From Rhizophagus irregularis (lineage: Eukaryota; Glomeromycota; Glomeromycetes; Glomerales; Glomeraceae), in the NCBI RefSeq assembly GCF_026210795.1, contig NC_089438.1:4547501-4611500 (forward strand): a stretch of DNA of 64,000 nt. Reading direction: 5' to 3'. Below the pieces are notes generated by a model. The model searched no databases. It was not told the DNA's origin and saw nothing but the letters and a program-made list of their open reading frames with translations. Both the position numbers and the translations under genes were made by a program. Positions 9,978 to 28,658 of this stretch are shown one piece after another. Position 1 is the first letter of the stretch, and the number at the start of each line of letters is the position of its first letter.

Positions 9978-12900
9978 TCACCGTTGATTGTAAAGTTTCA
10001 AACGTTCCGAATTTACTGGGGTTTTTAAAATATCTCCTTGTAATGTCCTTAATTTGTAAACTCCATTCCCCAAATCCTCGTGAATGTAATAAGGACCCTT
10101 CCAACGGTCTTGCAGCTTTTTCTTTCCCCTCAGCTGACTCTTATATAATAATACAAGATCACCAATCTTGTAAAATATTCTCACAAGATTTTCATCATGA
10201 CGCTGCTTCTGCTGCTGTTGTGCTTTATATATGGCGTCTTGAGTCATCAATCTATCTTCTGTGACTCTTCCAGTAAGCATGCGTATTCTAGCTAATAAAT
10301 CATCTTGTGAATCTCCTTCATGCAGTTCAGCTTGTATAGTCTTTACTGCAAAATCCACAGGTAGAACGGCATCTCTTCCATACATGAGATAGAATGGTTC
10401 GTGATGCGTAGTGCTTTGCTTTCTTACATGATATGCAAACAAAGCAGAGGACACATACATGTCCCAATCATCATGATTTTCATTTGAAAATTTCGCCAAT
10501 GCCTCACACAATGTCCTATTAAAACGCTCCACAAGACCATTTGTTTGGGGGTGATAGGCAGTTGATAATCGATGTTTTACCCCAAGCTCATCACATAATG
10601 AATCTAACATTTCATTAACAAAATGGGACCCACGATCGGTTAGTATTTCTTTTGGGCACCCGTGGCGGCAGATTATGTCTTCATAGAAAAAAGACACAAC
10701 CGAAGAGGCTTTTGCATCAGGAAGGGCTCGTGCCTCGGGCCATTTGGTAAGATATTCAGTGGCAACAACTATATACTTGTTGCCTTTCTTTGTTGTGGGA
10801 AGGGGTCCTACGATATCTATGCCTATCCTGTCAAAAGGCATTCCAACTTTGATCGGGTGTAGAGGTTCTACACGTCGATTTTTCCCCCTTCTTTGGCACT
10901 CGTCGCAAGTTCGTACATATCTACGAACGTCTTCGTACATCTGCGGCCAGTAATAGCGAACTTTTACTCGCCTATAAGTTTCGTCTAATGAAAAGTGTCT
11001 GGCCAGCGGATCCGAATGGGTAAAATGTAAAATTTCTCCAATTTCATTTTCTTTCACAACCTTAATAGGTCTATTTGGGTTGTTTTTATTTCTTTTGTAT
11101 AACTGATCATTCAATACAATAAAATATCGAGCTTTTCATCTTATTGCATCCTGTTGTTTTTTCGTCATGTCTGTTGGTAATGATAAGTCCGTCAAAAATC
11201 GTATTAGTGAATAATATATGGTGGTATCCATTCCGTTAAGTCAATAATGGGAAATCCGTTAAGTGGCGTCAAAAAAGGCGTTAATCCGGTGTGTATATAA
11301 AAAAAATTAAAATATAGGTTGTATTAAACTCTTATTCGGCTTAGTGTATCGACGTTGGTGTGCTGTTTTCCGGGGCGGTTAATTATTTCCAAATCATATC
11401 CGTTAAGAGTCATCAACCATCTTCCGAGCTTACCAACAGGGTTCGACATGTTCATTAAATATCTTAAAGCGGCGTGATCAGTTACAACGGTAAATCGTTA
11501 TCCGTGCAAATAATGATGGAAGTGCTTGACGGCCCATATAACCGCAAGACACTCCAATTCCGTAACACTATAATTCCGTTCATGCTTATTTAGAGTCCGG
11601 CTCGCATAAGTAATGACGCGTTCTTTTTTATCGTCATCCTTTTGGGATAATATTGCACCCAACGCAAAAGTAGAGGCGTCGGTATATAATAAGAACGGTC
11701 TTTCGAAATTAGGATACGCCAATATAGGTGGCGTTGTTAAACAAGTCTTCAATTTCTCAAACGCGGCTTGTTGATCTTTATCCCAAATATATGGGATGTT
11801 TTTCTTTAATAACCTATTCAACGGTTCAACAATAGACGAGAAGTTCTTCATGAACTTTCGGTAATACGAGGCCAGCGCAATGAATTCTCTTAATTGCGTT
11901 AAGTCTTTCGGAATAGGAAATTCGTTGATGGTGCGTAATTTTTCAGGATCGGTATGGATGCCTTTTCGGCTCACCACATGTCCTAGGAAAGGAAGTTCTT
12001 CTTTAAAAAAGAAACACTTCCCAGGACTTAATTTTAAACCGGCCTTCTCTAGACGTGAGAAAACCTATTCCAGATGTACCAAATGCTCTTCGAAGGTTTT
12101 TGATCCTACATTAATGTCGTCGATGTATACTACAGTGAACTGCCACAGGATGTCTCATAACACCATATCCATTAGACGTTGAAAGGTTGCGGGAGCGTTA
12201 CAGAGGCCAAAGGGCATCACGGTAAACTCATACGTCCCGAACCTGGTGATGAACGTTGATTTTTCCCGGTCTTTTGGGTCCAATTCGACCTGCCAAAAGC
12301 CACTGGCAAGGTCTAAGGATGAGAACCATCGAGACCCTGATAATGTTTCCAACATATCGTCTATTCGTGGTAAAGGATAACAATCCTTTTTAATGACCTT
12401 GTTGAGTTTCCAATAATCCACACAAAGGCACTTCTTCCCGTTCTTTTTTTCTACTACAACCACGGGAGAAGTCCATTGACTACTTGATGGCACAATTAGA
12501 CCGACCTCCAAGAGTCGTTGTATTTCCTCTTTGATGAACAACTGATTCTGATGTGACGTCCGGTAGAACCTTTGCTTGATAGGAATCGCACTTCCAGTAT
12601 CAATATTGTGTGTAACCACCGATGTCCGACCAAAACCATTTGAACTCCACGCAAACAGATTATTATATTTTTTTATAAATTCATCAAACTTCTGTTGCTG
12701 GTCTTCATCCAGATTTCCAGTATGGAACTTTCTGATCTCAGTTTCCTTATACTGATAATAATAATCGTTTTCAATCAGAGCCGTTCCCCTTAATCCATCT
12801 TCGATTTCCTGAGCTTCCTTTTGGGTGATGAACTGTGTATGACAATATAGCTGCTCTTGAGTGGTTTCATCTTCACTCTCGTATTCTTCATCAGAATCTT

Positions 12901-13239
12901 CTATAGCTTCATCATCCGGTTCATCGTCTGGTTCCTTATCGGGTTCGATATCCGGTACTTCGATACTGATGATGTGATGTGGCATTTCCCGACATTCGGT
13001 TGATACTTTAATTACATCACCTTTCCATTTGATTGTCATAGTATCATTATCATAATCCAAGACGGCCTTAGTTTTTCGCAACCAGTCATTTCCGACTATC
13101 GCTGCGTAAGAATCAGCATCAGTCACAATAGCATCCATAGGGATGATCTGATCATGTATCTTTAGAGGAATATTCGATACGGCTCCTAGTGGTCTTCGCC
13201 GTTCTCCGTTTATGTTTACCATCACCGTTTTAGATGCTC
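9978..13239 (-). pseudogene. Gypsy1 pol: protease C-part, RT, RNase H, integrase (decayed)
   Basis: Read on the minus strand: the protease C-terminal part (AIVGNDWLRKTKAVLDYD), RT (PLPRIDDML, PFGLCNAPATFQ, YIDDI), RNase H (LLYTDAS, ELECLAVIWA), then integrase with the HHCC zinc motif (HSDPLARH...CDEC), the DDE triad (DIVG, TDRGSHF, PQTNGLVERFN) and a C-terminal KGPYYIH GPY/F module. Stops break it at 12155-12157 (TGA), 12065-12067 (TAG), 11498-11500 (TAA) and 11136-11138 (TGA). The RT motif VDYRKLN reads VDYWKLN. Several of these fit C-to-T at CpG (CGA to TGA, CGG to TGG). The N-terminal half of the protease lies beyond the DNA element at 28659-29337. Confidence 0.92.
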
Positions 13240-13241
13240 TA

Positions 13242-13740
13242 CATCAGGAAATTATATAGTGCGAAAAGTTGCGCAAGTTTACACATCATAATATTTCGTA
13301 AGCTTCCAGACCCGCCGCAAGTTTGCGTAAGCGTAATATTTCGTAACTTTTTAAAATATTTCGAAATATTACGATATGCAAAGCTTCGTAATTTTACGAT
13401 TTGTAATATTCCGTAATTTTGCGGTTCGCAATATTTCGTAATTTTACATAATATTTCGTAAGTTTTCAGACCCGCCGCAAGTTTGCGTAAGCGTAATATT
13501 TTGTAACTTTTTAAAATATTTCGAAATATTACTGTATGCAAGGCTTCGTAATTTTACGATTCGTAATATTCCGTAATTTTACTGCGTAATACTTCGCAAC
13601 TTTTTAAAATATTTCGAAATTCTATGATGCGTAATGTTCCATAATTTGACGATTCGTAATATTCTGTGATTTTACACAACTTAATATTTCGTAATATTTC
13701 AAAATATTTCGATAAATAATACTTCATTTTCTGTACTATA
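13242..13740. repeat. Left subterminal repeats of the TA element
   Basis: Dense CGTAATATTTCG and TTTCGAAATATT motifs. A unit of about 160 bp (GACCCGCCGCAAGTTTGCG near 13309 and 13469) occurs twice. These share the GTAATATT/TTCGAAATA vocabulary with the 50-bp repeats at the other end, as expected for transposase-binding subterminal sites. Confidence 0.7.
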
Positions 13741-14485
13741 AGTTTATATAATGTATGTTTTATTAGATATAATCATAAAAAATTACAAGTATTTATTAAT
13801 ATATACAGAATACATAAAAGTAAAAAAGAGAAAGAGTAGAGTAACAATATTATTAGACGTAAAAAGAAGAGAAACAGCTATAGTAACGTTAGTATTAGAT
13901 ATAAAGATAAAAGAAATATTGTTATTATTGTTAGTATTAAGGTAAAAGAGTTAAAGAAACAGTAAAAGGAGTAAAAGAAACATGGATATTATCGTTAGTA
14001 TTAAAGTACAAGTAAAAAGAAATAAAGGAAACGTAGATAGTATTGTTAGTATTACGACATAAAGTAACAAAGAGGTAAAAAAAAAACGCGTTAATATTAA
14101 AATAATTAGTATTAATAAATAAATATTTCTATACCTGCAAAGTAATTGAACAAAAGAATAAAGAAATAAAGAGAAAGGAAAAAATAAACATGTTGTTAGT
14201 ATTGTTAGTATCGTTAGTATTAAAGTACAAGTAAAAAGGAATAAAGGAAACATGGATATTATTGTTAGTATTACGATACAAAATAACAAAGAGGTAAAAA
14301 AAAATGAAAATAATTAGTATTAATAAACAAATATTTCTATACCTGCAAAGCAATAAATTATGAAATATATGTAAATATATTGTATATAATTAAAGAAATA
14401 ATAGAAAGAAGAGACAAAAAAATTAAAAATATTGAACAAAAGAATAAAGAAATAAGAAACAAAAATAAATAAGACAAAAACGCGT
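13741..14485. repeat. Purine-rich imperfect repeats, left arm of TA element
   Basis: A stretch of about 209 bp recurs (marker CTATACCTGCAAAG at about 14129 and 14338), with GTTAGTATTA-type sub-repeats. No supported gene. It ends at GCGT (14482-14485), the gypsy2 target duplication. Confidence 0.6.
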
Positions 14486-15727
14486 TGAGATCCCCCAATT
14501 CCCTCTGTCATCAATTTACAGAGTTGCCACATCGAACGGGCATTCTCATGGTCGAACGAACGAATAAACGAACGAACGAACAATTAAACGAGCGAACAAT
14601 TAATCAACAACATAATCAAACAACATAATCAACGAACAACATACAACAACATATAACAACAACATTCTTGGTTCACAAAATAAATAGCGTTAGTAATATA
14701 AAACGTCGAACGATATAAAATAAAATTTAACTTCTCTAAATTTTCCCCAAATTATATCCACTTTTACCTTTAATTTCAAACTTCGATAGCTCTCGCTACG
14801 AATTATTACTTTCCAAAAGTGTATATTTAATTCATCTTAAAATTTCCATTTATTCAATTAAAATTAATTAAGCAAACATTAATTAAAGTTTAGGGCGAAC
14901 CTATTACCTTTAATTAACATTAAACTTTACTAACAAATAATTAAAAAATAAAACTTATATTTTTATTGAGTTCTGTGGATGAGAACTGTGGAATTACTTT
15001 GAATTCCGTTCTCTATATATACAATTTTTATGCTACTTTCTATTCTATCTATATACTATCTTTTATGTTCTTTACATATTATCTTTGAACTATCTTTCTA
15101 ATATACTATCTATATTTTAAATACGCTATCTTTTAATATGCTATCTTATTTATTATCTTTTCTATTATTCAAATATTACATCGTAAAGAAATAATTTATA
15201 ACCCATCTTTTATGGCTGTGCTATCTTTTCTTTAAAATAATCTTTCAAATATTATGTCGTAAAGATATAATTCATCTTTTGTGGCTGTGTTATCTTTTAT
15301 ATATGTTCTTCTTAATATGTTATCTTTTATATTCCATCTTTATGCCATCTTTTCATATTATCTTCTATATTATTTTGTGTTCTCCAATCTTTCCGACATT
15401 ATTTTATATATTCTTTTAATCCACTTTATGTGTTTCGCTCATAATCTACCTTTTGTGGCTTATAATTATTCTTTCTTGTCGTTCTCATTGTTAAAGATCG
15501 CTAAGTCGCAAATGATCGACTCTATTTATCCTATTGGTTCTTTGTCAATCATTCAATAAATATTACATCATGTAGATCATTACTCTTCTTAAATGTTTAT
15601 CCTTTTCGGCTAATTATTTATCCATCCACACCAATCCACGATTAATTTGTTCGTTCTTAATACTTGATAATTACATTTGGCGGTTGAATTTTATCATCTT
15701 TTCGTGCTTGATATTCGGCCGTTTACA
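14486..15727 (-). repeat. Gypsy2 3' LTR
   Basis: 1242 bp and TG...CA bounded. The body is rich in CTATCTTTTAT-type repeats and CGAACGAACG tandem motifs near 14550. A 92-residue frame at 15281-15559 repeats unchanged in the other LTR simply because the LTRs match; it is not supported as a gene. Confidence 0.95.
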
Positions 15728-15741
15728 TTATCCCCCTCTTC
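15728..15741 (-). other. Gypsy2 polypurine tract
   Basis: Minus-strand GAAGAGGGGGATAA directly abuts the 3' LTR, 62 bases after the integrase stop. Confidence 0.75.
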
Positions 15742-15803
15742 GCTATTTGTGACCTCACAAATAACTTTAAAAGAATCGAACTCGGGTCTCGTTCATAATA
15801 ATT

Positions 15804-17030
15804 CTAATTGAATCGAACTCGGGTCTTATCGAATACCTCTTTTCCTTTAATTACTATTTTTGGTGTAAATCCCCCTCGATCATAAAATTTCTTTAACCAT
15901 TCTCCATTTTGTGGTGTCTTTAGTATTCTTCCGTCCAATTCTTTAAGTTTATATGCTCCATTTCCAAATTCTTCGTGAATTAAATATGGTCCTTTCCATT
16001 TGTTCTGTAATTTTCCAGACCATTGTTTCTCTCTCCATGCTTCATATAATAATACTTTTTCTCCTATTTCAAATTTAGGTTTTCTAATTCCCCTCTTGTC
16101 GTGTTGTTGTTTTTGTTTCTCTTGAGCTTCTTCCACATTTTCTTTTATTTTTCTTCTTATTACCGGTAACTCTTCAATTAATGTTTTTACCCTGTCAGCT
16201 AATGTTATCTTGTTTTCATCTTTATCTAATGGTAGTTTCGCTCTTCTTCCGTATGTTGCATAGAAAGTTTTAATTCTTGTTGACGACTGCTTCTTTGTTC
16301 TATATGCAAATAATACAGATGGTATATGTTTATCCCAATTTTCTTCTCCTAATTTGGCTAATCCTTCGCATAAAGTTTTATTGAATCTTTCGACCAAACC
16401 ATTTGTTTGTGGCCTATATGGTGTACTTAATCTATGATTTATCCCACATCTTTCTACTAATTCTTCCATCATCTTGTTGTTAAAGTGAGTCCCTCTATCG
16501 CTAATTATTTTCTTTGGACATCCATGTCTACAAATTATGTCTCTCCAAATAAATTCTACTACTTCTTTTGCTGTAGCTTCTTTCAGTGGTGCGGCTTCGG
16601 GCCATTTTGTAAAATAATCCATTGCTACTACAATATACTTATTTCCCTTTTCTGTCTCTTTTAATGGTCCAACTATATCTATTCCAATCATCTCGAATGG
16701 TTCATTTATCTTTATCGGCAATAATTCATTCTTTCCTCTTGGTTTTCCTCTCATTTGACAATTCCAACACGTTTTTACATATTCTTCTACATCTTCTTTC
16801 ATATTTTTCCACCAATAATTTTCTTTTATTCTATCTAATGTCGCTTCCACTCCAAAATGTCCTGATAATTCGTTATCATGCATCATGTACATCAATCCTT
16901 CGTATTCATAATCCCTGATTACTCTAAATTTGTTTTGTCCTTTTACTCTATATAGAATTCCTTCTTTCAATTCATATTTATTCTCCTTTTCGATATTGTC
17001 AATTATTCTCTTGTAATTATTTTCTTCCAT
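15804..17030 (-). CDS. Gypsy2 integrase (separate ORF)
   Basis: 408 residues from its own ATG. The N-terminal zinc motif is HDNELSGH followed by CWNC. The catalytic core is DIVG (first D), SDRGTHF (second D) and PQTNGLVERFN (E). The C-terminal GPY/F module is NKWKGPYLIHEEFGNGAYKL. All catalytic residues are present. It joins the cDNA to chromosomal DNA; the 4-bp GCGT duplication reflects its cut spacing. It lies 60 bases after the RT-kinase stop in the same frame, with a second in-frame TAA between, so simple readthrough does not explain expression. Reinitiation, a spliced RNA or a subgenomic message are options. A separate integrase frame is unusual for Ty3/gypsy, and since the element looks young this is unlikely to be decay. 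Confidence 0.92.
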   Translation of the reverse strand: MEENNYKRIIDNIEKENKYELKEGILYRVKGQNKFRVIRDYEYEGLMYMMHDNELSGHFGVEATLDRIKENYWWKNMKEDVEEYVKTCWNCQMRGKPRGKNELLPIKINEPFEMIGIDIVGPLKETEKGNKYIVVAMDYFTKWPEAAPLKEATAKEVVEFIWRDIICRHGCPKKIISDRGTHFNNKMMEELVERCGINHRLSTPYRPQTNGLVERFNKTLCEGLAKLGEENWDKHIPSVLFAYRTKKQSSTRIKTFYATYGRRAKLPLDKDENKITLADRVKTLIEELPVIRRKIKENVEEAQEKQKQQHDKRGIRKPKFEIGEKVLLYEAWREKQWSGKLQNKWKGPYLIHEEFGNGAYKLKELDGRILKTPQNGEWLKKFYDRGGFTPKIVIKGKEVFDKTRVRFN

Positions 17031-17090
17031 AATATTTCTTTAATTGATTTCGCTTCTAAATTTGTTATTTTCGTTATGTGTTCTGTATTT

Positions 17091-19148
17091 TTAGTTCTGT
17101 GCTCTTCTCCATTTCTCCACCTCTTTAAATACTTTTCTCCAACTACTATTGTCATTTTTAACTTTTACTCGACTGTATCTTTTGGTATCTTTATACACAC
17201 TTTGATTTTCTTCAAACATTTTAACCATGTCCAAATATTCATCCTTCTTTAATGTTGGATATGATGATTTTTCCGTTTTCTTTGTTTCTCTTCCAATGTA
17301 ATTTTTCCAACATACGTCACCATCTTTCTCTAAAAATATCACTATTGATTTATCTATCGTTTCTTTCAGTCTGAATATTTCTTTTTCCATCTCATGATTT
17401 CCATGTGGAGTAATTAATCCTCTGTCAAAACTTTTCGTCTTTTGGTAATAATATTCACAATATGGTGATTTGTCTAAAATTATTATATCTGTATCTTCAT
17501 CATATTCTAACATTCTTCTATTTATTTGTTCTACTACTTCTTTTCTAAATTTCCATTCTGTATCCATCTTTGATTCGTGAAATTCATCTTTATCTTTTCT
17601 TCTTCTTTTAAAAGTATTGAATCTTACTTTTAATCCTTGTTTTTCCCATTCTTTAATTAAATTTTGTACTATACTTGTTTTTCCTAATCCATCTACTCCG
17701 TCGATTATTACTATTTCTGGTTGATCCTCTACTATCTTTAATAATCTACTTAATGCGTCGGCATTCGTGTTTTCTTTTCCCGATCTATGTATTACTTCAA
17801 AATTATATTGCTGTAGTTCCATCACCCATCTTGCTCTTTTTCCTTTTGGTATCTTTGCATTCATTAGTCCTTTTAATGCACTGTGATCTGTTATTACTTT
17901 AAATTTTCTATCGATTAAATATTTATGAAAATGTTGAATTCCCCAAACTATTCCTAAACATTCCAATTCTGTTATCGGATAATTTTCTTCTGCTGGTAAT
18001 AAACTTCTACTTGCATATGCTATTACTACTTCTTTTCCTTTTTCATCTTTTTGACTTAATACTGCGCCTAATCCTTTTCCTGATGCATCTGTTATTAATA
18101 AAAATTCTTTCTTCCAATCTGGATGTCGTAATATCGGATATTGTATTAACTTTTCTTTCAATTTTTCAAACGCTTCTTGTTGTTCTCTTCCCCAAATGAA
18201 AGGTACTCCCTTCTTTCTCAAATCACTTATTGGTCTTGCTATCTTTGAAAAGTTTTTCACAAACTTTCTGTAATATGAACAAAGTCCCAAAAATGATCTT
18301 ACTTCTTTCACCGTTGTTGGTGCCTTCATTTCTTTTATCTTTCCTATCTTTTTATCGTCTGGCCTTAACCCATCATTTCCTACTATATGTCCTAAAAATT
18401 CTATGTTTCTTTCCAAAAATCTACATTTCTTTAATTTTATTATCAAATTATTCTCCTGTAGCTTCTTTAATACTTTTTCCACGTGTTCCATATGATCTTT
18501 CAAATTTTCTGAATATATCATAATATCATCGATATATACTACTACAAAATCGTTTATGTATTCTTCTAATATTTCGTCCATTAATCTTTGAAATGTTGCT
18601 GGTGCATTCGTTAAACCGAACGGCATTACATTATACTCAAATAATCCCTTTGAACATACAAATGCTGTTTTTTCTTTGTCTTCTTCTTTCATTTCTACTT
18701 GATTAAATCCCGCCGCTAAATCTATACTTGAAAACCATTTTGCTTTTCTGTATTTGTCTAACAATTCATCCATTCTTGGTAAAGGAAAACTATCCATTAT
18801 AGTTATCTTGTTTAATTTTCTATAATCAATACAGAATCTATATTTTCCCGTTTTCTTTCCTGCTAACGTAACAGGTGAACTCCATGGACTTTTTGATTTC
18901 CTTATCCTTCCTTGTCTTAACAATTTATCCACTTCTTCGCTTATAAATCTTGCCTTTTCATCTGTTTCTTTGTATCTTCTTTGCTTTATTGGTTCTACCC
19001 CTTCTTTTATCTTTATTTCATGCTGCGCTGCTTTTGTTCTTCCTTCTATTTCCTCGTCATATTCCAAAATATCTTGGTATTCTAATAGTAATTTTACCAT
19101 ATTTTCCCAAATTGGTTCTTCTACTTCCCCTATACTTAGTTTTTGCAT
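17091..19148 (-). CDS. Gypsy2 RT-RNase H fused to a thymidylate-kinase-like domain
   Basis: 685 residues from ATG. RT (about 50-260) shows PLPRMDELL, PFGLTNAPATFQ and YIDD (205-208). RNase H (about 345-465) shows LITDASGKGLG, TELECLG and TDHSALKG. From residue 478 to the end is an extra P-loop domain: IIDGVDGLGKTS (Walker A, G484-T491), the acidic/substrate motif ILDKSPYCEYYYQ (about 557-569), a Lys/Arg/Glu-rich lid-like part (RETKKTEK) and an amphipathic C-terminus. The GxDGxGKT loop and D-x-SPY motif resemble thymidylate kinases and deoxynucleoside kinases. A role in dTMP or dNTP supply for reverse transcription is inference. The frame stays open upstream of the ATG to 19211, in the -1 frame relative to protease. 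Confidence 0.9.
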   Translation of the reverse strand: MQKLSIGEVEEPIWENMVKLLLEYQDILEYDEEIEGRTKAAQHEIKIKEGVEPIKQRRYKETDEKARFISEEVDKLLRQGRIRKSKSPWSSPVTLAGKKTGKYRFCIDYRKLNKITIMDSFPLPRMDELLDKYRKAKWFSSIDLAAGFNQVEMKEEDKEKTAFVCSKGLFEYNVMPFGLTNAPATFQRLMDEILEEYINDFVVVYIDDIMIYSENLKDHMEHVEKVLKKLQENNLIIKLKKCRFLERNIEFLGHIVGNDGLRPDDKKIGKIKEMKAPTTVKEVRSFLGLCSYYRKFVKNFSKIARPISDLRKKGVPFIWGREQQEAFEKLKEKLIQYPILRHPDWKKEFLLITDASGKGLGAVLSQKDEKGKEVVIAYASRSLLPAEENYPITELECLGIVWGIQHFHKYLIDRKFKVITDHSALKGLMNAKIPKGKRARWVMELQQYNFEVIHRSGKENTNADALSRLLKIVEDQPEIVIIDGVDGLGKTSIVQNLIKEWEKQGLKVRFNTFKRRRKDKDEFHESKMDTEWKFRKEVVEQINRRMLEYDEDTDIIILDKSPYCEYYYQKTKSFDRGLITPHGNHEMEKEIFRLKETIDKSIVIFLEKDGDVCWKNYIGRETKKTEKSSYPTLKKDEYLDMVKMFEENQSVYKDTKRYSRVKVKNDNSSWRKVFKEVEKWRRAQN

Positions 19149-19207
19149 AAATTTTTCACTTGGTTCGAGCCTCTTTTCCGTCTCTCTCTCTTCAGAGCCA
19201 AGACTCT

Positions 19208-19717
19208 TTATTTAAAATTCTGATGCATTCTGAATACCTCCCCTTCATCGTTACTTTCATATTCTTCATCGTCTTCGCTCTCCTCACTTTCATATACCTC
19301 CCTTTCGTATCCTACTGGAATTGTTATTATTTCTCCCTGTTCTTCCATTCTTAAGGTATGATCTTCAAAATTTATTTTTGCATTATATAACTTCCATATA
19401 TCATTTCCCAAAATTAGATCCTCTTCTTCTGAATCGATTACTTCAACTTCTCTTAGTATTTCCAATTCATCTTTGTATCTCAAAGTTATATTTGCCTTTC
19501 CTAACGCTGCTATCTTTTGCCCATTTGCTATTGTACATCTAAATTTACTTTTTCCAAATATAGGTATATTCAATCTTCTTCTTAATTTATCTGTTATCAC
19601 GCTTACTGCTGCTCCGGTATCTATTATTACGCTCACTAATTGATCTTCAACTTCTAATTCTGTTCTCATTGCTGTAGTTTTCTTCTCTTCATTTTTCATA
19701 GTTCCCACCGAGTGTAG
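19208..19717 (-). CDS. Gypsy2 aspartic protease (read through from gag)
   Basis: A retropepsin of about 165 residues with VSVIIDTGAAVSVITDKL (DTG active site) and LILGNDIWKLY (ILGND flap-side motif), then an acidic tail. It is in the same frame as gag, separated only by the TGA at 19718-19720; the six codons between that stop and the first ATG (19699) are all sense. Production as a gag-protease readthrough product is therefore likely. It ends at TAA 19208-19210. Confidence 0.85.
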   Translation of the reverse strand, partial: LHSVGTMKNEEKKTTAMRTELEVEDQLVSVIIDTGAAVSVITDKLRRRLNIPIFGKSKFRCTIANGQKIAALGKANITLRYKDELEILREVEVIDSEEEDLILGNDIWKLYNAKINFEDHTLRMEEQGEIITIPVGYEREVYESEESEDDEEYESNDEGEVFRMHQNFK

Positions 19718-19720
19718 TCA
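19715..19720 (-). promoter_or_regulatory. Candidate UGA-CUA stop-codon readthrough site (gag/protease)
   Basis: The gag stop reads TGA CTA on the minus strand. UGA followed by CUA is the best-known leaky stop context in eukaryotes (established, for example in fungal and animal readthrough genes and some RNA viruses). Protease follows in the same frame. Confidence 0.7.
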
Positions 19721-22700
19721 ATTTTTTTCGTTTATACTTCTTGGTCTATATGTTCCTTCTCTCAATTGTTTATGATACTTAACATTCCCATTTATTAATT
19801 GTCCATATGTTATATTCGCTCTACAATTTTTCACGTCTTCCACAATATCATAAGGTGGTATTCCGTCAGTTAATCTTGGTCCATACTCTCTGGGTTTTGT
19901 TGGTCCTCCTGCTTCTCTCCATTTTCTTAGTCCTTCTGTTGGGTCGTAATAAGCTTGTCTTTTATTACTCCATCTCATTCCTTTTGGTCCTATTGGTCTA
20001 CCCCCATTTTGTTCTGTGCGTTCAGGTATATAATTTGGTGCCGTTGTACCACTTGGCATTTCTCTATCATCCATTCTATTTCCTGCTTCCCTTAATTCTT
20101 CTTGTAAATTTCCCTCTTCATTATTATTTTTATATCCCACTATTGGACTCGTTCTTCTTGATTGTCTTCTTCCTTTTACTGCGTCATCTTTTGCGTATAA
20201 TTCATTATGATAATTTAATTCTCCATCTTCATAATCATCGTAATAGCCTTGTGTGTAATATATTCCGTTATATTGTGGTTCCTCGTATCCATATTCATCA
20301 TAATAATATTCTTCTTGATCATCATATTCGTCTATCATATTTACTCTTGCATTCCTTCCTTCGGGACAATTATTCTTGTAATGCCCCACTCTATTACATC
20401 CGAAACACGTTGGTACCCTATTCTGATTTGGTTGATAACTATTCCTATTACCATTATTTAATCTCCTTCCCATATTTGGTCGATACCTATTCCTATTATC
20501 GTCATTTAATCTTCTCTCCATATTTGCTACCATTCTTTCTAATTTACTAATTTTCGCCTTCTCTTTAAACATTTCAGCTAATTCGTCCTCATAATTTTCG
20601 TTCAATGGTTTTGCGAACATATTTTGTCTATTGTCATCTTTTCCGATATCTATCTTCGTACTAATTGGTATTCCTATTGCTTTTCTTAAAAATTCGTCTT
20701 TTGCACCTTCTTCTCTTACTGCTATTTCTATCGCCCCATTTAAGTTCGCTGGATTCTGTCTTCTAACTTGATATCCTATTGTTGGTTCTAATCCTTCGAT
20801 GTAAAAATCTACTTGATATTCATCTGCTAATGCATGTCCTCTAGTTGCTATTCTTAATATTTGTCTAAATCTTCTTGTATATTCTTCAACACTTTCATTT
20901 GTTTCTTGTCGAGTTTTTCTTAATTCTAGCATTTTCTTTCTTCTAACATCCTCTCTGGTAAATCTTCTTTTTATTCTATGCTTTAAATCATTATCATTAT
21001 CTGCATCTGCCCAATTCACTAAGTGACCTGCATTTACTTCTTTCATTTCATTATACCATTGTGCTGCTGCTCCTCTTAAATGTGCTGCTGCGTATACCGC
21101 TTGTCTTACGCCATTAGCTCCCGCTGCTTTTCCGACTGCTGCAAATGCTACCTCGAATTGTCTAACCCAATCAGTAACATCTTCATCTTCTCTTCCATAA
21201 AAGAGTGGTATACTAATTGTTCCTCCTGCTTCATTTCCTGCATTTTCGATCCTATCTATCAAACTTCCTCCTGCTCCTACTGCTGCGTTCAAAGTATTAG
21301 CCGGATAGCCTAAAGCGTTCTCTATCAATCTCTTTACTTGATCCTCGGTTGCCATATTCAATATATTCTCTTGAAATAAATCTTGTAAATTATAATCAGA
21401 TAATTCACTTTCGTTGTCAGAATTTTTAATATTTAATGAACTATTCGTATCTGAATTTTGACTTAAATCGCTATCCCCTCTATTTATACCATTTTCAACT
21501 TCATCTTCAAACTCTTCTTTGTTAAAATTTTCAATATCTTCATCCCATCTTTCATCCGGACTTAGTATTTCTCCAATCTTTTCTGAATCATCTGTATTAT
21601 CTTCTTCTGATTCTTCATTATCGCTTCTTTCGCCACTTTCTTCACTATCTATTATTCCCGCTTGTTCTTTCAACAACTTATCTAATTTTTTCTTCAATTC
21701 TTTTTCCGACTCATCTTTATTTTCTTGAAAGATTTCAATGAATTCTTTATCTAAAATTTCTCCATCTGTATATCCCATACTAGTTAATCTCAACAATTCT
21801 TCTTCGGTTATTATTGTTCCAATATCTTCAAAAATCTTCTGTAATCTTTTTACCCGATCATCAATTTCATCGATATTTTCTTCTTCACAATCTTTGCATA
21901 CCATTCCTCTTACTCTAGACATATCATCCATCCATCCCAATCTAAACATATCATTCATCCATCTTATTTCACATCTTTCACACCAAGTTGTATTCTTGTT
22001 TAACCACTTATGAATTTCTTTTCTTAATTCTTTATCTTCCAAATCTATCATTTCCATATATTCTTCCACAAATTCTTTAGTTACTATTATTCGATTATTT
22101 ACCCCAAAACTCTTCATTCTTTGAATTTCTGACACATCTATTTCATATCCCAATTTTTCTAAGTTGTTTCTTAATTCTATTAGCTCATCTTGTTCATTCT
22201 TCTGCGCTTCTTTAACACATTCCCCGCATTCGCTATCCGCTTCGTCCATTTCGAACCTTCTATTACCACATTTTTCACATCTTATTGTTTCTTTTTCTAA
22301 CCATTCTTTTATCCTCAATTCTTTTTCCCTTTCATCCAATTCCTCTATCTCTTGAATTTTATCCATAAATATTCTCGTTACCAATATATCCATTTCTATC
22401 ATCAACTTTATCCCTATCTTCCAAATGTACCTCAGTTGATCTTCATCCATAACATTTGACCTTCTTCTTAATTCACTAAATTTCCATGATTTATCTCCTA
22501 TTATTATCTCTAATTCTTCCTCGGAATCATTTTCCAATTCGTAACTTGCTGGACTATCTTCACTTTCTGAATCTTCTGGTTCTTTTGTAAATCCCCTAGT
22601 ATCTATAAATATTCTTATTATCTTTTGCATCATATTTTTGTGATATTCGTGAACATTTTCTATATGTATGTTCTCATATTCTATTTCGGACATTAGTTCC

Positions 22701-23311
22701 TTTACTTTTCCCTCATTCATGGCTATTCCTTCTTCTTCATATAGTAATTCCCTAAATGTCTTTATTGCTCCTGTCTCTACTCGTAATGGTCCAATTTCTT
22801 TTGATGTGATTCTATACCATTGCCAAAATTTCTCAAACCTTCTTTCAACATCCCAATCTTCCAAAATATATTTGTGTTCTATTAATTCAGGATTTCCAAT
22901 TAATCTATCAAATACTTCATTCCCCAGATTTCTTTCAATACAGTCTCTTACAATTACTAATATAATTGTTCGTAATCCCCTTTCTTTCATTTTTGGTTGT
23001 ATTCTATATCTTATTGATTCCGTTATTCTATCCATTATGTCTCTACATTTCCCTTTATGTATTGTATCTTCCCTTTCTGAATTATTCATACTTAATAAAT
23101 CTAATACTCCCTTAATCGTTACGTCATTGTATATTATTATTGCATCTTCAAATTTAAATAACGCGTCCCAAAATTTCTTGAATACTATTGGTTCATTTAC
23201 TATTGGATAACATAATTCACAATTTAAACATTCATCCAATTCTTCCGTTCCTAATTCGTGTTCCTCTTTATGTGTTCTATATTCGCTTTCCCATTGATGG
23301 TACCATTCCAT
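19718..23311 (-). CDS. Gypsy2 giant Gag with N-terminal Cys-rich extension
   Basis: 1197 residues from ATG. About 640 N-terminal residues are acidic and contain three CxxC-type clusters (CLNCELC; CEKC...CGEC; CERC...CKDC), separated by repeat-like EE/LTSMG segments that look internally duplicated. The capsid-like part follows (GTISIPLFYGREDEDVTDW, RLTREDVRRKKM-type helices, then EEYTRRFRQILR). Near residue 1010 is one CCHC knuckle, CFGCNRVGHYKNNC, for RNA binding. The C-terminus is Tyr/Asp-rich. A normal Ty3/gypsy gag is 300-500 residues, so the extension is unusual. The paired CxxC units suggest metal-binding modules; their role is unknown. Confidence 0.88.
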   Translation of the reverse strand: MEWYHQWESEYRTHKEEHELGTEELDECLNCELCYPIVNEPIVFKKFWDALFKFEDAIIIYNDVTIKGVLDLLSMNNSEREDTIHKGKCRDIMDRITESIRYRIQPKMKERGLRTIILVIVRDCIERNLGNEVFDRLIGNPELIEHKYILEDWDVERRFEKFWQWYRITSKEIGPLRVETGAIKTFRELLYEEEGIAMNEGKVKELMSEIEYENIHIENVHEYHKNMMQKIIRIFIDTRGFTKEPEDSESEDSPASYELENDSEEELEIIIGDKSWKFSELRRRSNVMDEDQLRYIWKIGIKLMIEMDILVTRIFMDKIQEIEELDEREKELRIKEWLEKETIRCEKCGNRRFEMDEADSECGECVKEAQKNEQDELIELRNNLEKLGYEIDVSEIQRMKSFGVNNRIIVTKEFVEEYMEMIDLEDKELRKEIHKWLNKNTTWCERCEIRWMNDMFRLGWMDDMSRVRGMVCKDCEEENIDEIDDRVKRLQKIFEDIGTIITEEELLRLTSMGYTDGEILDKEFIEIFQENKDESEKELKKKLDKLLKEQAGIIDSEESGERSDNEESEEDNTDDSEKIGEILSPDERWDEDIENFNKEEFEDEVENGINRGDSDLSQNSDTNSSLNIKNSDNESELSDYNLQDLFQENILNMATEDQVKRLIENALGYPANTLNAAVGAGGSLIDRIENAGNEAGGTISIPLFYGREDEDVTDWVRQFEVAFAAVGKAAGANGVRQAVYAAAHLRGAAAQWYNEMKEVNAGHLVNWADADNDNDLKHRIKRRFTREDVRRKKMLELRKTRQETNESVEEYTRRFRQILRIATRGHALADEYQVDFYIEGLEPTIGYQVRRQNPANLNGAIEIAVREEGAKDEFLRKAIGIPISTKIDIGKDDNRQNMFAKPLNENYEDELAEMFKEKAKISKLERMVANMERRLNDDNRNRYRPNMGRRLNNGNRNSYQPNQNRVPTCFGCNRVGHYKNNCPEGRNARVNMIDEYDDQEEYYYDEYGYEEPQYNGIYYTQGYYDDYEDGELNYHNELYAKDDAVKGRRQSRRTSPIVGYKNNNEEGNLQEELREAGNRMDDREMPSGTTAPNYIPERTEQNGGRPIGPKGMRWSNKRQAYYDPTEGLRKWREAGGPTKPREYGPRLTDGIPPYDIVEDVKNCRANITYGQLINGNVKYHKQLREGTYRPRSINEKN

Positions 23312-24933
23312 TATATGCTTTAGTTAAATTGCTATGAATATCCATCCAGAATCTCAATCAGATTCCTCTCTCTATATATATATATTTCACTCTTATCATT
23401 TCTATTTTTGATCTTCTAAACATTCTTTTATCTTTAAATAGGTTGCTTCTTTCAATCTTTAGATTCCATCCTTCAATTTTTATGTATTCGCTACGCCATA
23501 TTTTACTATTAATTTTTACTGCGCCTCAAAATTTCAAAAATTATTCTAAGTCCACGATCTCCTCAGACTGCGGAGGTTGTTACTGTGCCACAAAGTTTAT
23601 CTTTTGTCACCAAGGTCCATAATCTCACATATCACATTCTAAAATTTATCCCCTATCACCGTGATTCATAATTTCACATATCACATTCTAAAATTTATCT
23701 TTTATCGCCGAGATTCATAATTTCACATATCACATATCACAAACTTTATGAAAATTTTGAAGTTTTAAGGTTTGCAAATTTCCAATCTTTCTTATCATCC
23801 ATATAAATCTTTCTTATTATATATTCTATATTATATAAATTAATCTATAACACACAAAATGTCGTTCTTTTCAGATAAATGTCTTTCTTTTCAAATAAAT
23901 GTTCTTTTTCAAATAAATATTCTTTTTTAAATAAATGTTCTTCTTTTAAATAAATGTCCTTCTTTTCGGATTTTACTCTATTATTAAATACTGCACGTAG
24001 TGTTCATTATACGGCTCGTTAATGTGTAAATATCCTTCTATTTTTTCTTCTTTTAACGGAACATTGTAATGAGAGCGTGAACTAGGACACTACACCAGGA
24101 ACCTTCATCTGAAATGTAGCCTAGGACCTGTAACAATACAACGTATCCATTTTTCCTCCTTCGTTGGCCGACTTGTCTCTTAACGGGTGAATCTAACCTT
24201 CCAAAATCCAGTTTCAAAAGTCATCAGCTATCCATAAAACTCATCTAAACCAACTTATCTTTCCTCAAATTGGTGGACCTATACTGGGCTTATCTCTATC
24301 TTTTTCCCATTGGGTAAAAGCATGATAGTTTACAGGTTTGTCCCATTTTATCCATTCAATGTTTCTTGATAGTAGGTGTCTTTACAATCTTCATTCCCCG
24401 TCCCCAAAGCAATTTGCGCATTATTGAGCTGGGTATCCAGATTTGACGTAACCCATACGTTATAATCTTTAATGTCGAAGAATAAAAATTTTCCAATCTC
24501 GAACATTTATCCAAAATTCAAACTCAGAGGTAACCCATACCACACAGATGAACCCCAGATAATGCATTGGTGTTCTCCCATTATTAATCTTTATTCCAAA
24601 ATTCATCTTTCACTTCCCCATCTCCTTATGAAATTTCTCAGGTACTCTATTCCCGAAAGAAATATTCTTGTGCTTTCTATCGATTAAGTGATTACTTGCA
24701 CAACGACAAACTTCAATCTTTCACCTTTTCAAGTTTTTAACTCAATTAAATCCTTATTGATTTATTGGTTCCCTTTGAACTCGTCAAAACCTGAAATCTA
24801 AAAATAAATTCTAAAATAAAATATTGATTAATAATACCTATCAGTGACTTACTAACGAAATTAAATTTTCATATTCATTATAATAATAATCATGTGATGA
24901 TGATCATTTCCTTTCTTGCGAGCATGCACCATA
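23312..24933 (-). other. Gypsy2 untranslated leader with primer-binding site
   Basis: 1.6 kb between the 5' LTR and gag. The primer site TGGTGCATGCTCGCAAG is at 24931-24915, complementary to a tRNA 3' end ...GCACCA (tRNA not identified). Imperfect repeats of ATTTCACATATCACATTC (23620-23740) and AATAAATGTTCTT (23870-23970) are visible. No supported gene. Confidence 0.75.
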
Positions 24934-26175
24934 TGAGATCCCCCAATTCCCTCTGTCATCAATTTACAGAGTTGCCACATCGAACGGGCATTCTCATGGT
25001 CGAACGAACGAATAAACGAACGAACGAACAATTAAACGAGCGAACAATTAATCAACAACATAATCAAACAACATAATCAACGAACAACATACAACAACAT
25101 ATAACAACAACATTCTTGGTTCACAAAATAAATAGCGTTAGTAATATAAAACGTCGAACGATATAAAATAAAATTTAACTTCTCTAAATTTTCCCCAAAT
25201 TATATCCACTTTTACCTTTAATTTCAAACTTCGATAGCTCTCGCTACGAATTATTACTTTCCAAAAGTGTATATTTAATTCATCTTAAAATTTCCATTTA
25301 TTCAATTAAAATTAATTAAGCAAACATTAATTAAAGTTTAGGGCGAACCTATTACCTTTAATTAACATTAAACTTTACTAACAAATAATTAAAAAATAAA
25401 ACTTATATTTTTATTGAGTTCTGTGGATGAGAACTGTGGAATTACTTTGAATTCCGTTCTCTATATATACAATTTTTATGCTACTTTCTATTCTATCTAT
25501 ATACTATCTTTTATGTTCTTTACATATTATCTTTGAACTATCTTTCTAATATACTATCTATATTTTAAATACGCTATCTTTTAATATGCTATCTTATTTA
25601 TTATCTTTTCTATTATTCAAATATTACATCGTAAAGAAATAATTTATAACCCATCTTTTATGGCTGTGCTATCTTTTCTTTAAAATAATCTTTCAAATAT
25701 TATGTCGTAAAGATATAATTCATCTTTTGTGGCTGTGTTATCTTTTATATATGTTCTTCTTAATATGTTATCTTTTATATTCCATCTTTATGCCATCTTT
25801 TCATATTATCTTCTATATTATTTTGTGTTCTCCAATCTTTCCGACATTATTTTATATATTCTTTTAATCCACTTTATGTGTTTCGCTCATAATCTACCTT
25901 TTGTGGCTTATAATTATTCTTTCTTGTCGTTCTCATTGTTAAAGATCGCTAAGTCGCAAATGATCGACTCTATTTATCCTATTGGTTCTTTGTCAATCAT
26001 TCAATAAATATTACATCATGTAGATCATTACTCTTCTTAAATGTTTATCCTTTTCGGCTAATTATTTATCCATCCACACCAATCCACGATTAATTTGTTC
26101 GTTCTTAATACTTGATAATTACATTTGGCGGTTGAATTTTATCATCTTTTCGTGCTTGATATTCGGCCGTTTACA
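24934..26175 (-). repeat. Gypsy2 5' LTR
   Basis: 1242 bp, same length and sequence as 14486-15727 as far as compared. Followed on the plus strand by GCGT, the target duplication. Confidence 0.95.
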
Positions 26176-27032
26176 GCGTGCATGATTAAATGATTAAATG
26201 ATTAAATCACATGCAAGGATCAGCCTAATTTGATTGGCCAGAAAATACGATATCGTAAAATTACGGAAATCCGCATTTTAAAAAATTATGTATATTGTAC
26301 AGCGGGTGTGACATAAATAAATCGTGACTGAAATTTGTGTTCAATTTGTGTTCAATTTGTGTTCAATTTGTGTTGATAATTCTGGTAAAAAATTATTAAT
26401 TTTGGCCAAATTTCGTTAAATTTGTTAAATTTGTGTTGAGTTTGTGTTGAATTTGTGTTGCGTAATTTTTTATTTATCACAAGGGGATGATATTTAGTAA
26501 TTGCATGTACGACGTACAAGATTTTTTTTTATGATTTTTTTAAGAAATGTACGCAAAATATTTAATCAGAATATAATTGTTTTATTTTTAAATATGATAT
26601 ATTGATTTTTTTTTAAAAAAAAAATTGATTTTTTTAAAATTCAATAGAATGTGCTAATAATAAATTGGTTTATTTTTAAATATAATATATTGATATTTAT
26701 ATTTAAATAACCAAAACATGTACATGATTTTTAATTATTTTTAATTGAAATCAAACTAAGATTTTTTTTAAAAAAAAATTAAAATAAATTAAGTGATTTA
26801 TATTTATATTTAGAATCATGATATTTATATTTAGATAATCCATATCCGCATGAGATTTAATTAATATGTTTAATGATGAAAAGTCTAATAAATTAAATTT
26901 TAATTGAAACGAGAAATAAAATCAAACCAAAGAGGTATTGTTCAAATTTTATTTAAAGTGACATTTTACGACTTTCTTTCAAATTTTTACTCATCCCAAA
27001 ATCAAATTATAAAAATAAAATCAAATCTAATA
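26176..27032. other. Right arm of TA element, upstream of DNA-binding gene
   Basis: AT-rich. ATGATTAAATG is repeated three times near 26185 and an 11-bp unit TTCAATTTGTG about four times at 26338-26375. Presumed promoter region of the gene at 27033; no specific site can be named. Confidence 0.5.
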
Positions 27033-27673: not shown

Positions 27674-28055
27674 TTATTTTTATTTTTTTATTTATTAAGT
27701 GAGTAGCTAGGCCCAGTCCGTACCAAATATCGGCTGGAGACTCACGTTTTTTTTGGGCTGTGACTGATACTGACGTCCACGCCGTACAGCCTGGGTACTA
27801 TTTTATAAAATAGTAGCGAACAAGTATCAAATGTATATTTTTTTATTAAGTTATAATAAAAATTAGAATTTACTTTAATTTTTAACATAAAAATTGTAAA
27901 TAATAAAAAATTCGTAAATAAAAATAAATTTGCTTTCCCAAACTTAAAAAAAAAGGTGTTTATATAAAAGAAAAGGTGTTTATATTATTTTTGATTATTC
28001 AATAGTATCACATGCCCCTTGTATACGTTCTACTGCATACGCAGTTTACAATCTC
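27674..28055. other. 3' region of the DNA-binding gene
   Basis: 27700-27830 is GC-richer than its surroundings and can fold: GGCTGT (about 27755) pairs with ACAGCC (about 27787), and CTATTTTATAAAATAG (about 27799-27814) is a perfect palindrome. It may be a 3' UTR structure or terminator; nothing else is seen. Confidence 0.35.
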
Positions 28056-28510
28056 GTAAATTTTCGAAACGGAATATTACGCAGGTTTACAGTCTCGTAA
28101 ATTTTCGAAATATTTCAACCGTAATATTACGCAGGTTTACAGTTTCGTAAATTTTCAAAATATTTTAACCGTAATATTACGCAGGTTTACAGTCTCGTAA
28201 ATTTTCGAAATATTTCAACCGTAATATTACGCAGGTTTACAGTCTCGTAAATTTTCGAAATATTTTAACCGTAATATTACGCAGATTTACAGTCTCGTAA
28301 ATTTTCGAAATATTTCAACCGTAATATTACGCAGGTTTACAGTTTCGTAAATTTTCGAAATATTTCAACCGTAATATTACGCAGGTTTACAGTTTCGTAA
28401 ATTTTCAAAATATTTCAACCGTAATATTACGCAGGTTTACAGTTTCGTAAATTTGCAGAATATTTTGACCGTAATATTGCGTAAATCTTACGATATTGTA
28501 AACTTACGTA
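28056..28510. repeat. 50-bp subterminal tandem repeats (about nine units)
   Basis: Exact 50-bp spacing of GCAGGTTTACAGT (28081, 28131, 28181, 28231, 28281, 28331, 28381, 28431), each with CGTAATATTACG and TTTTCGAAATATTT palindromic cores and one or two base changes. More degenerate units reach toward 28620. Likely transposase or DNA-binding-protein sites of the TA element. Confidence 0.85.
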
Positions 28511-28658
28511 ATATTTTAACCGTAATATCACATAAATCTTACGAAATTGTAAACTTACGTAATATTTTGAAATTTTTCGAAATATTATGCCATAAACTTT
28601 CATAAACTTACAAAATCGTAAACTTACGCAATTTTTCGCGCTATAAAATTTCCTGATG

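Follow-up and report, generated by a model that had tools for sequence, protein, structure and literature searches.

A predicted nucleotide kinase between RNase H and integrase in Ty3/Gypsy elements of Rhizophagus irregularis

The 64,000-nucleotide stretch of the Rhizophagus irregularis genome that was analyzed here (the window; contig NC_089438.1 of assembly GCF_026210795.1, positions 4,547,501 to 4,611,500) harbors a complete Ty3/Gypsy element on its minus strand, at window positions 14486-26175. Behind RNase H, the reverse transcriptase (RT)-RNase H frame of this long terminal repeat (LTR) element continues into a domain that resembles thymidylate and deoxynucleoside kinases. The favored explanation, to which a probability of about 0.68 is given, is that the element gained a nucleotide kinase of the thymidylate kinase (TMK)/deoxynucleoside kinase (dNK) fold between RNase H and integrase (IN), and that this enzyme would supply precursors.

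A predicted kinase fold behind RNase H

The RT-RNase H-kinase frame extends from stop to stop over 17091..19211 (minus strand, 706 amino acids (aa)) and encodes 685 residues without an internal stop from its first methionine at 19148. The kinase-like domain takes up residues 477-685 of this frame (17094..17720, minus strand, 209 aa). An extra P-loop domain at residues 478-685, continuous with RNase H, had been proposed in the initial annotation, and both its presence and its continuity are borne out. The P-loop follows the pattern GxxGxGK[TS] and contains the Walker A motif GVDGLGKT (17676..17699, minus strand, domain residues 8-15). It is followed by the motif DKSPYCEYYYQ (17442..17474, minus strand, domain residues 83-93) and by RETKKTEK, a candidate lid (17268..17291, minus strand). 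In an alignment of 51 chosen relatives with identities down to 52%, G8, D10, and K14 of Walker A are invariant, as are D83, K84, Y87, Y92, and Q93 of the DKSPYCEYYYQ motif and R144 of the candidate lid.

By its fold, the domain is supported as a kinase of the thymidylate/deoxynucleoside type, as the initial annotation had supposed, and on the whole the case is stronger than it was put there. The predicted structure is of high confidence and matches both the TMK fold and the dNK fold. Among sequence profiles, the thymidylate kinase profile PHROG_761 matches the window domain at E 2e-14 over residues 3-204 of 209 and matches all 51 aligned relatives; the Pfam profile Thymidylate_kin (PF02223) matches 42 of them, and one relative, P0085, clears the curated PF02223 cut-off with 30.2 bits. 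For the dNK profile PF01712, no match of the window domain is listed up to E 10, in a search whose filters remove most weak matches. A sequence search of solved structures returned no significant match of the single domain. The best domain-profile matches among solved structures were FtsY GTPases (3.7e-6, covering the linker and the P-loop), with yeast thymidylate kinase at 0.029; an FtsY identity was discarded, since the predicted fold as a whole agrees with TMK and dNK.

An active kinase with another substrate or purpose, such as deoxynucleoside salvage or the phosphorylation of primer or cDNA 5′-ends by a polynucleotide kinase, is possible but rather unlikely. It gains from the structure comparison, in which dGK, dCK, and the kinase AbmG score within one Z unit of TMK, and from PF01712, which matches two of the 51 relatives at E<=0.001. 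Additionally, the sequence D-K-S-x-Y-S/C resembles the E-R-S motif of deoxynucleoside kinases. The profiles nevertheless favor thymidylate kinase, and a phage protein annotated as thymidylate kinase carries DRSAYSGLAYQ at the corresponding position; aligned by profile, the phage and E. coli Tmk sequences cover the first half only. Among the best 50 structure matches listed there is no polynucleotide kinase, although this does not exclude one.

Copies, selection, and relatives

A search of the genome (146.7 Mb, 32 contigs) yielded at least 151 kinase-domain matches (150 of 172 candidates scored), and the domain is thus not confined to the window copy. An artefact, be it an assembly chimera, a chance frame, or a nested insertion, is hardly credible: nothing was found in its favor, and it is contradicted by these matches, by records from other species and sources, and by the high-confidence fold. 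The matches fall into families whose counts, taken from the listed matches, are lower bounds. Family A comprises at least 37 matches in stop-free frames of 704-708 aa, with about 8 residues between RNase H and kinase. Families B and C carry a linker of about 80 residues at this place. Family B (86-89% identity) has at least 15 matches in 779-aa frames, each with its own TAA at residue 208, and family C is about 58-67% identical to A. In family D (about 54-58% identity, at least 20 matches in 600-aa frames), RT-RNase H ends with its own stop, and the kinase, starting from its own methionine, opens the integrase frame. Two loci, L017 and L048, are intermediate at 84% and 75% identity. The kinase is therefore fused in two topologies, next to RNase H in A, B, and C and next to integrase in D. 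Integrase lies behind the RT-RNase H(-kinase) stop in a separate frame with a methionine near its start in the window, L012, L018, L020, L055, and L056; L030 has the kinase-integrase arrangement.

Forty-eight loci were read, namely the eight best matches (including L001, the window copy) and 40 picked over the identity range with preference for full-length ones. Walker A is kept in 45 of them and DKSPY[CS]EY[FY]YQ in 46, and three are interrupted by a stop in the first 195 residues; the motifs singled out by the initial annotation are thus conserved among copies. Another reading is a noncatalytic role, in which the kinase fold would serve as a spacer, a dimerization module, or a nucleic-acid-binding module between RNase H and integrase. 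The domain does lie between these two enzymes in either fusion, and Walker A is changed in three of the 48 loci, though these are possibly just dead copies. A scaffold would be expected to lose K14, D10, D83, and R144, which are invariant in the 51 relatives, and a noncatalytic role is accordingly judged improbable.

The kinase is kept under selection, as its ratio of nonsynonymous to synonymous divergence (dN/dS, Nei-Gojobori) lies far below 1, at 0.04-0.23 across 18 pairs. Over 15 pairs compared for three domains, dN/dS is 0.04-0.18 for the kinase, 0.03-0.27 for RT, and 0.07-0.36 for integrase; the highest RT value comes from a single pair with a synonymous divergence (dS) of 0.026, and where dS is above about 1, saturation makes a pair no more than indicative. 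The kinase ranks below integrase in 10 of the 15 pairs, a comparison in which some RT, integrase, and kinase rows have stops or shifted ends that inflate the integrase values most.

Exchange of the kinase is seen in family B. Between the B locus L012 and the C-type locus L026, identity is 98% for RT and 91% for integrase but only 61% for the kinase. Between L012 and the window, in turn, the kinase is 89% identical and RT only 67%. At the DNA level, L012 and L026 share 89-100% identity through RT, RNase H, and the linker (97-100% from position 1001). Over the kinase, their identity falls to 58-81%, against 84-91% between L012 and the window, and over most of integrase it returns to 80-99%, against 48-78%. 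The 5′ switch lies a few codons ahead of the P-loop; at the 3′ end the switch is blurred by about 400 nucleotides past the kinase whose alignment to all other copies is poor. Synonymous divergence between L012 and L026 follows the same course (RT 0.026, kinase 1.58, integrase 0.41). Correspondingly, L012 groups with L026 in the RNase H tree (support 99/97) and with the window copy in the kinase tree (SH-aLRT 99). The simplest reading is that an intact kinase was replaced by another in family B while the enzymes flanking it were retained.

A further family, E, is 67-70% identical to the window RNase H (RNase H search, 150 of 271 candidates scored) and occurs at at least 22 places where the kinase search lists no match. 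In the two of these loci that were read, from RNase H onward, no kinase is present: a stop ends RNase H and is followed by 193-195 nucleotides up to the integrase frame. The RNase H tree, in which the row P0091 was disregarded, does not settle how A, D, E, and C branched, and loss of the kinase in E is not separated from an original lack. Downstream of a family E element, at L056:2745-4499, two long frames resembling a Maverick/Polinton-type DNA polymerase B were noticed by eye.

Database searches returned 79 related proteins in one case and 119 in another. The relatives from named species belong to R. irregularis, R. clarus, R. diaphanus, and Glomus cerebriforme, Rhizophagus and Glomus both being Glomeraceae, and the survey of Glomeromycotina that the initial annotation had called for is thus positive. 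One R. irregularis protein is 100% identical across the whole window domain; the remaining relatives are presumably environmental in source. Both fusion types recur among the database proteins, with RNase H-kinase fusions in P0081-P0084 and P0064 and kinase-integrase fusions in P0085, P0089, and P0090. P0086 is fused to both RNase H and integrase; as a gene prediction, its join may be a splicing guess. Ty3 Gag-Pol is the best PDB sequence match of P0085.

The nearest relatives without RT or integrase, P0096 and P0106, have an N-terminal NUDIX domain above the Pfam cut-off, and P0121 and P0122 are further NUDIX-kinases. P0122 is named thymidylate kinase/ADP-ribose pyrophosphatase YjhB by one source. 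Identity to the window kinase is 46% for P0096 and 37% for P0106, and a short segment ahead of their P-loop can be aligned with the B and C linker; they differ in having NUDIX in place of RNase H and neither RT nor integrase in the protein. In the genome search with P0106, the NUDIX part remained unmatched, the matches covering the kinase or the kinase plus about 28 preceding residues (115 of 167 candidates scored). In a quick kinase tree, from which P0086 was excluded as its P-loop falls outside the pattern used, the NUDIX-kinases form one set (SH-aLRT 96); the root of this tree is unsure because the outgroup branches measure about 7 changes per column. These likenesses suggest, without proving it, that the retrotransposon kinase was captured from a nucleotide-pool enzyme akin to the NUDIX-kinases.

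Beyond these proteins, no relative was confirmed in the viral contigs or prokaryote genome contigs searched, nor with tblastn (E<=1e-3) in phage records. At E<=5, P0085 matched 45 phage records. The best 15 listed comprise one thymidylate kinase (E 4) and 14 transposases or DNA-binding proteins matched through the integrase part.

Architecture of the element

The element has the domain order gag, aspartic protease (PR), RT, RNase H, and IN in its Pfam matches, which is the order of Ty3/Gypsy elements, and a Ty3_capsid match in gag. All of its parts lie on the minus strand. The 5′ LTR (24934..26175, TG...CA) and the 3′ LTR (14486..15727) are 1242 bp each and show no difference over 1241 compared positions, and a purine-rich tract, GAAGAGGGGGATAA, stands just before the 3′ LTR. 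The flanking sequence contains ACGC on both sides (26176..26179 on the 5′ side and 14482..14485 on the 3′ side), a candidate target-site duplication. The identical LTRs and the flanking ACGC point to a young insertion. Matching LTRs and open frames had been reported by the initial annotation and are found again here.

The gag frame (19718..23323) encodes 1201 aa with a Retrotrans_gag/Ty3_capsid core within residues 737-871 and a CCHC knuckle that was spotted by eye in the translation. With an N-terminal extension of about 735 residues ahead of the capsid-like core, gag is long. The protease frame (19208..19717, 169 aa) matches PF13975 and PF13650. At the gag/PR boundary lies an in-frame TGA-CTA (19715..19720), which is also present in loci of families A-D. 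It was found in the window and in 19 loci by pattern (L010-L015, L020-L023, L025-L027, L041-L045, and L048), as well as in L030, and it is in the same frame as PR in all four copies checked (window, L012, L020, and L030). TGA-CTA is a leaky stop context. Its conservation between gag and PR probably reflects programmed read-through.

The RT-RNase H-kinase frame overlaps the PR frame by 4 nucleotides in a different frame. Within it, RT (18381..18857, residues 98-256) matches PF00078 (RVT_1) at 6.6e-45, and RNase H (17805..18194, residues 319-448) matches PF17917 (2.7e-37) and PF17919. Stops separate the kinase frame from the integrase frame (15804..17039, 411 aa), which contains an H2C2 zinc finger and the rve core.

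Two other features of the window lie outside the element. A second, different Gypsy RT-RNase H stretch, recognized by eye, is located at 11498-13243 on the same strand beyond the 3′ LTR and, with 32.4% A, is less A-rich than the element. At 27958-28557, a tandem array with a 50-nucleotide period appears as nine overlapping copies of a 200-nucleotide reference.

Precursor supply and precedents among retroelements

In the proposed mechanism, the kinase would be made in one protein with RT and RNase H (in family D, with integrase), and the fusion itself suggests that it may be carried into the virus-like particle. There, or nearby, it would phosphorylate dTMP or another deoxynucleoside monophosphate (dNMP), and first-strand synthesis would thereby not be limited by the precursor pool. 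Between the LTRs, the sense strand consists of 44% A. First-strand cDNA would accordingly have a dT demand of about 44%, and of all precursors dTTP would be the likeliest to become limiting, an argument of plausibility and no more.

Several observations weigh against this explanation. The kinase is a predicted one, with a putative activity and candidate substrates. It shares its fold, its Walker A, and the place of the D-[RK]-...-YQ motif with thymidylate kinases (PF02223, PHROG_761), and it differs from them in its fusion to RNase H or integrase and in the pair before YQ, which is DK here and DR in the compared phage and E. coli Tmk. It also differs in its PF02223 score, which at 19.7-20.1 bits is under the curated cut-off of 27 in the window copy. 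In the structure comparison, the TMK and dNK folds are tied, which does not separate a dNMP from a nucleoside substrate. Among the database relatives excluded from the alignment are P0053 and P0055 with a changed Walker A, P0054 with a changed D83, and P0086 with a changed G8, and seven of the 48 loci have at least one defect in Walker A, the DKSPY motif, or an early stop. The dN/dS values are pairwise point estimates, and in 12 of the 15 pairs the kinase exceeds RT and is thus less constrained. The host genome contains at least two other loci with Thymidylate_kin above the cut-off (C13 and C24), so that the enzyme of the element would matter through where or when it acts and not as the sole source. 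Lastly, family E is 48.8% A in the stretch that was read; being equally A-rich and without a kinase in two loci, family E indicates that the kinase is not generally required and that A-richness alone is no explanation.

The apparent lack of a kinase in family E, together with the weaker constraint on the kinase than on RT, would also fit a passenger, a captured gene that rides in successful elements without benefit to them. Such a passenger is very improbable given the low dN/dS, the occurrence in two genera, and the replacement of one intact kinase by another in family B. The supply of precursors by a gained kinase is preferred. Its fullest form, for which the odds are put at about even, is a dNMP kinase of NUDIX-kinase descent that would couple precursor synthesis to reverse transcription in the particle, with cassettes traded under selection for activity. 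As far as the searches reach, this would be the first described case of a retroelement producing its deoxynucleoside triphosphate (dNTP) supply and not only cleaning it up.

Precedents are provided by dUTPases. Non-primate lentiviruses carry a dUTPase in pol between RNase H and integrase, according to the available part of PMC4531489, which agrees with the parallel drawn in the initial annotation: in both cases, an enzyme of nucleotide metabolism sits at the same pol place of an LTR retroelement. The dUTPase differs in that it hydrolyzes dUTP and is not a P-loop kinase. Unlike in lentiviruses, integrase lies in a separate frame in the R. irregularis element, and the kinase is found on either side of the break. 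By analogy, the kinase would serve precursor supply as the lentiviral dUTPase serves pool hygiene. In the accessible portions of PMC2864245 and PMC5408684, dUTPases are described in fungal Gypsy elements (PosPlaTy3 and others), at positions that vary among families, and in the bdelloid rotifer LTR families Juno, Vesta, and TelKA. These are likewise LTR elements that gained an enzyme of the dNTP pool; the enzyme is a different one, and the sites named there are either end of Pol, N- or C-terminal, or the interval from PR to RT.

The word "kinase" occurs nowhere in the main text of these two papers, and "thymidylate" does not occur in the accessible portions of the R. irregularis transposon papers PMC8647823 and PMC11075540. 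Complex fungal LTR elements with extra inserted domains are mentioned in the accessible portion of PMC3248453, the text of which contains no instance of "kinase". Among the best matches in the open-access literature, no report of a retroelement with a nucleotide kinase was found and no such fusion in Ty3/gypsy surfaced, consistent with the initial annotation, although absence from print is not thereby shown. LTR elements with a captured nucleotide enzyme are known, and among them the class of enzyme predicted here is, as far as searched, undescribed.

The nucleotide-metabolism enzyme that the consulted papers report from LTR elements is dUTPase; a kinase in its pol slot would mean that retroelements are able to gain, in addition, a step producing dNTP precursors. 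Specialists may be surprised by the enzyme itself, by its fusion in two topologies, and by the swap. A limit set on reverse transcription by dNTP supply would become testable with one small, well-folded domain, and a single genome with kinase-bearing, apparently kinase-less, and kinase-swapped families offers a ready comparison. For R. irregularis, an important plant symbiont, the element explains a repeated protein.
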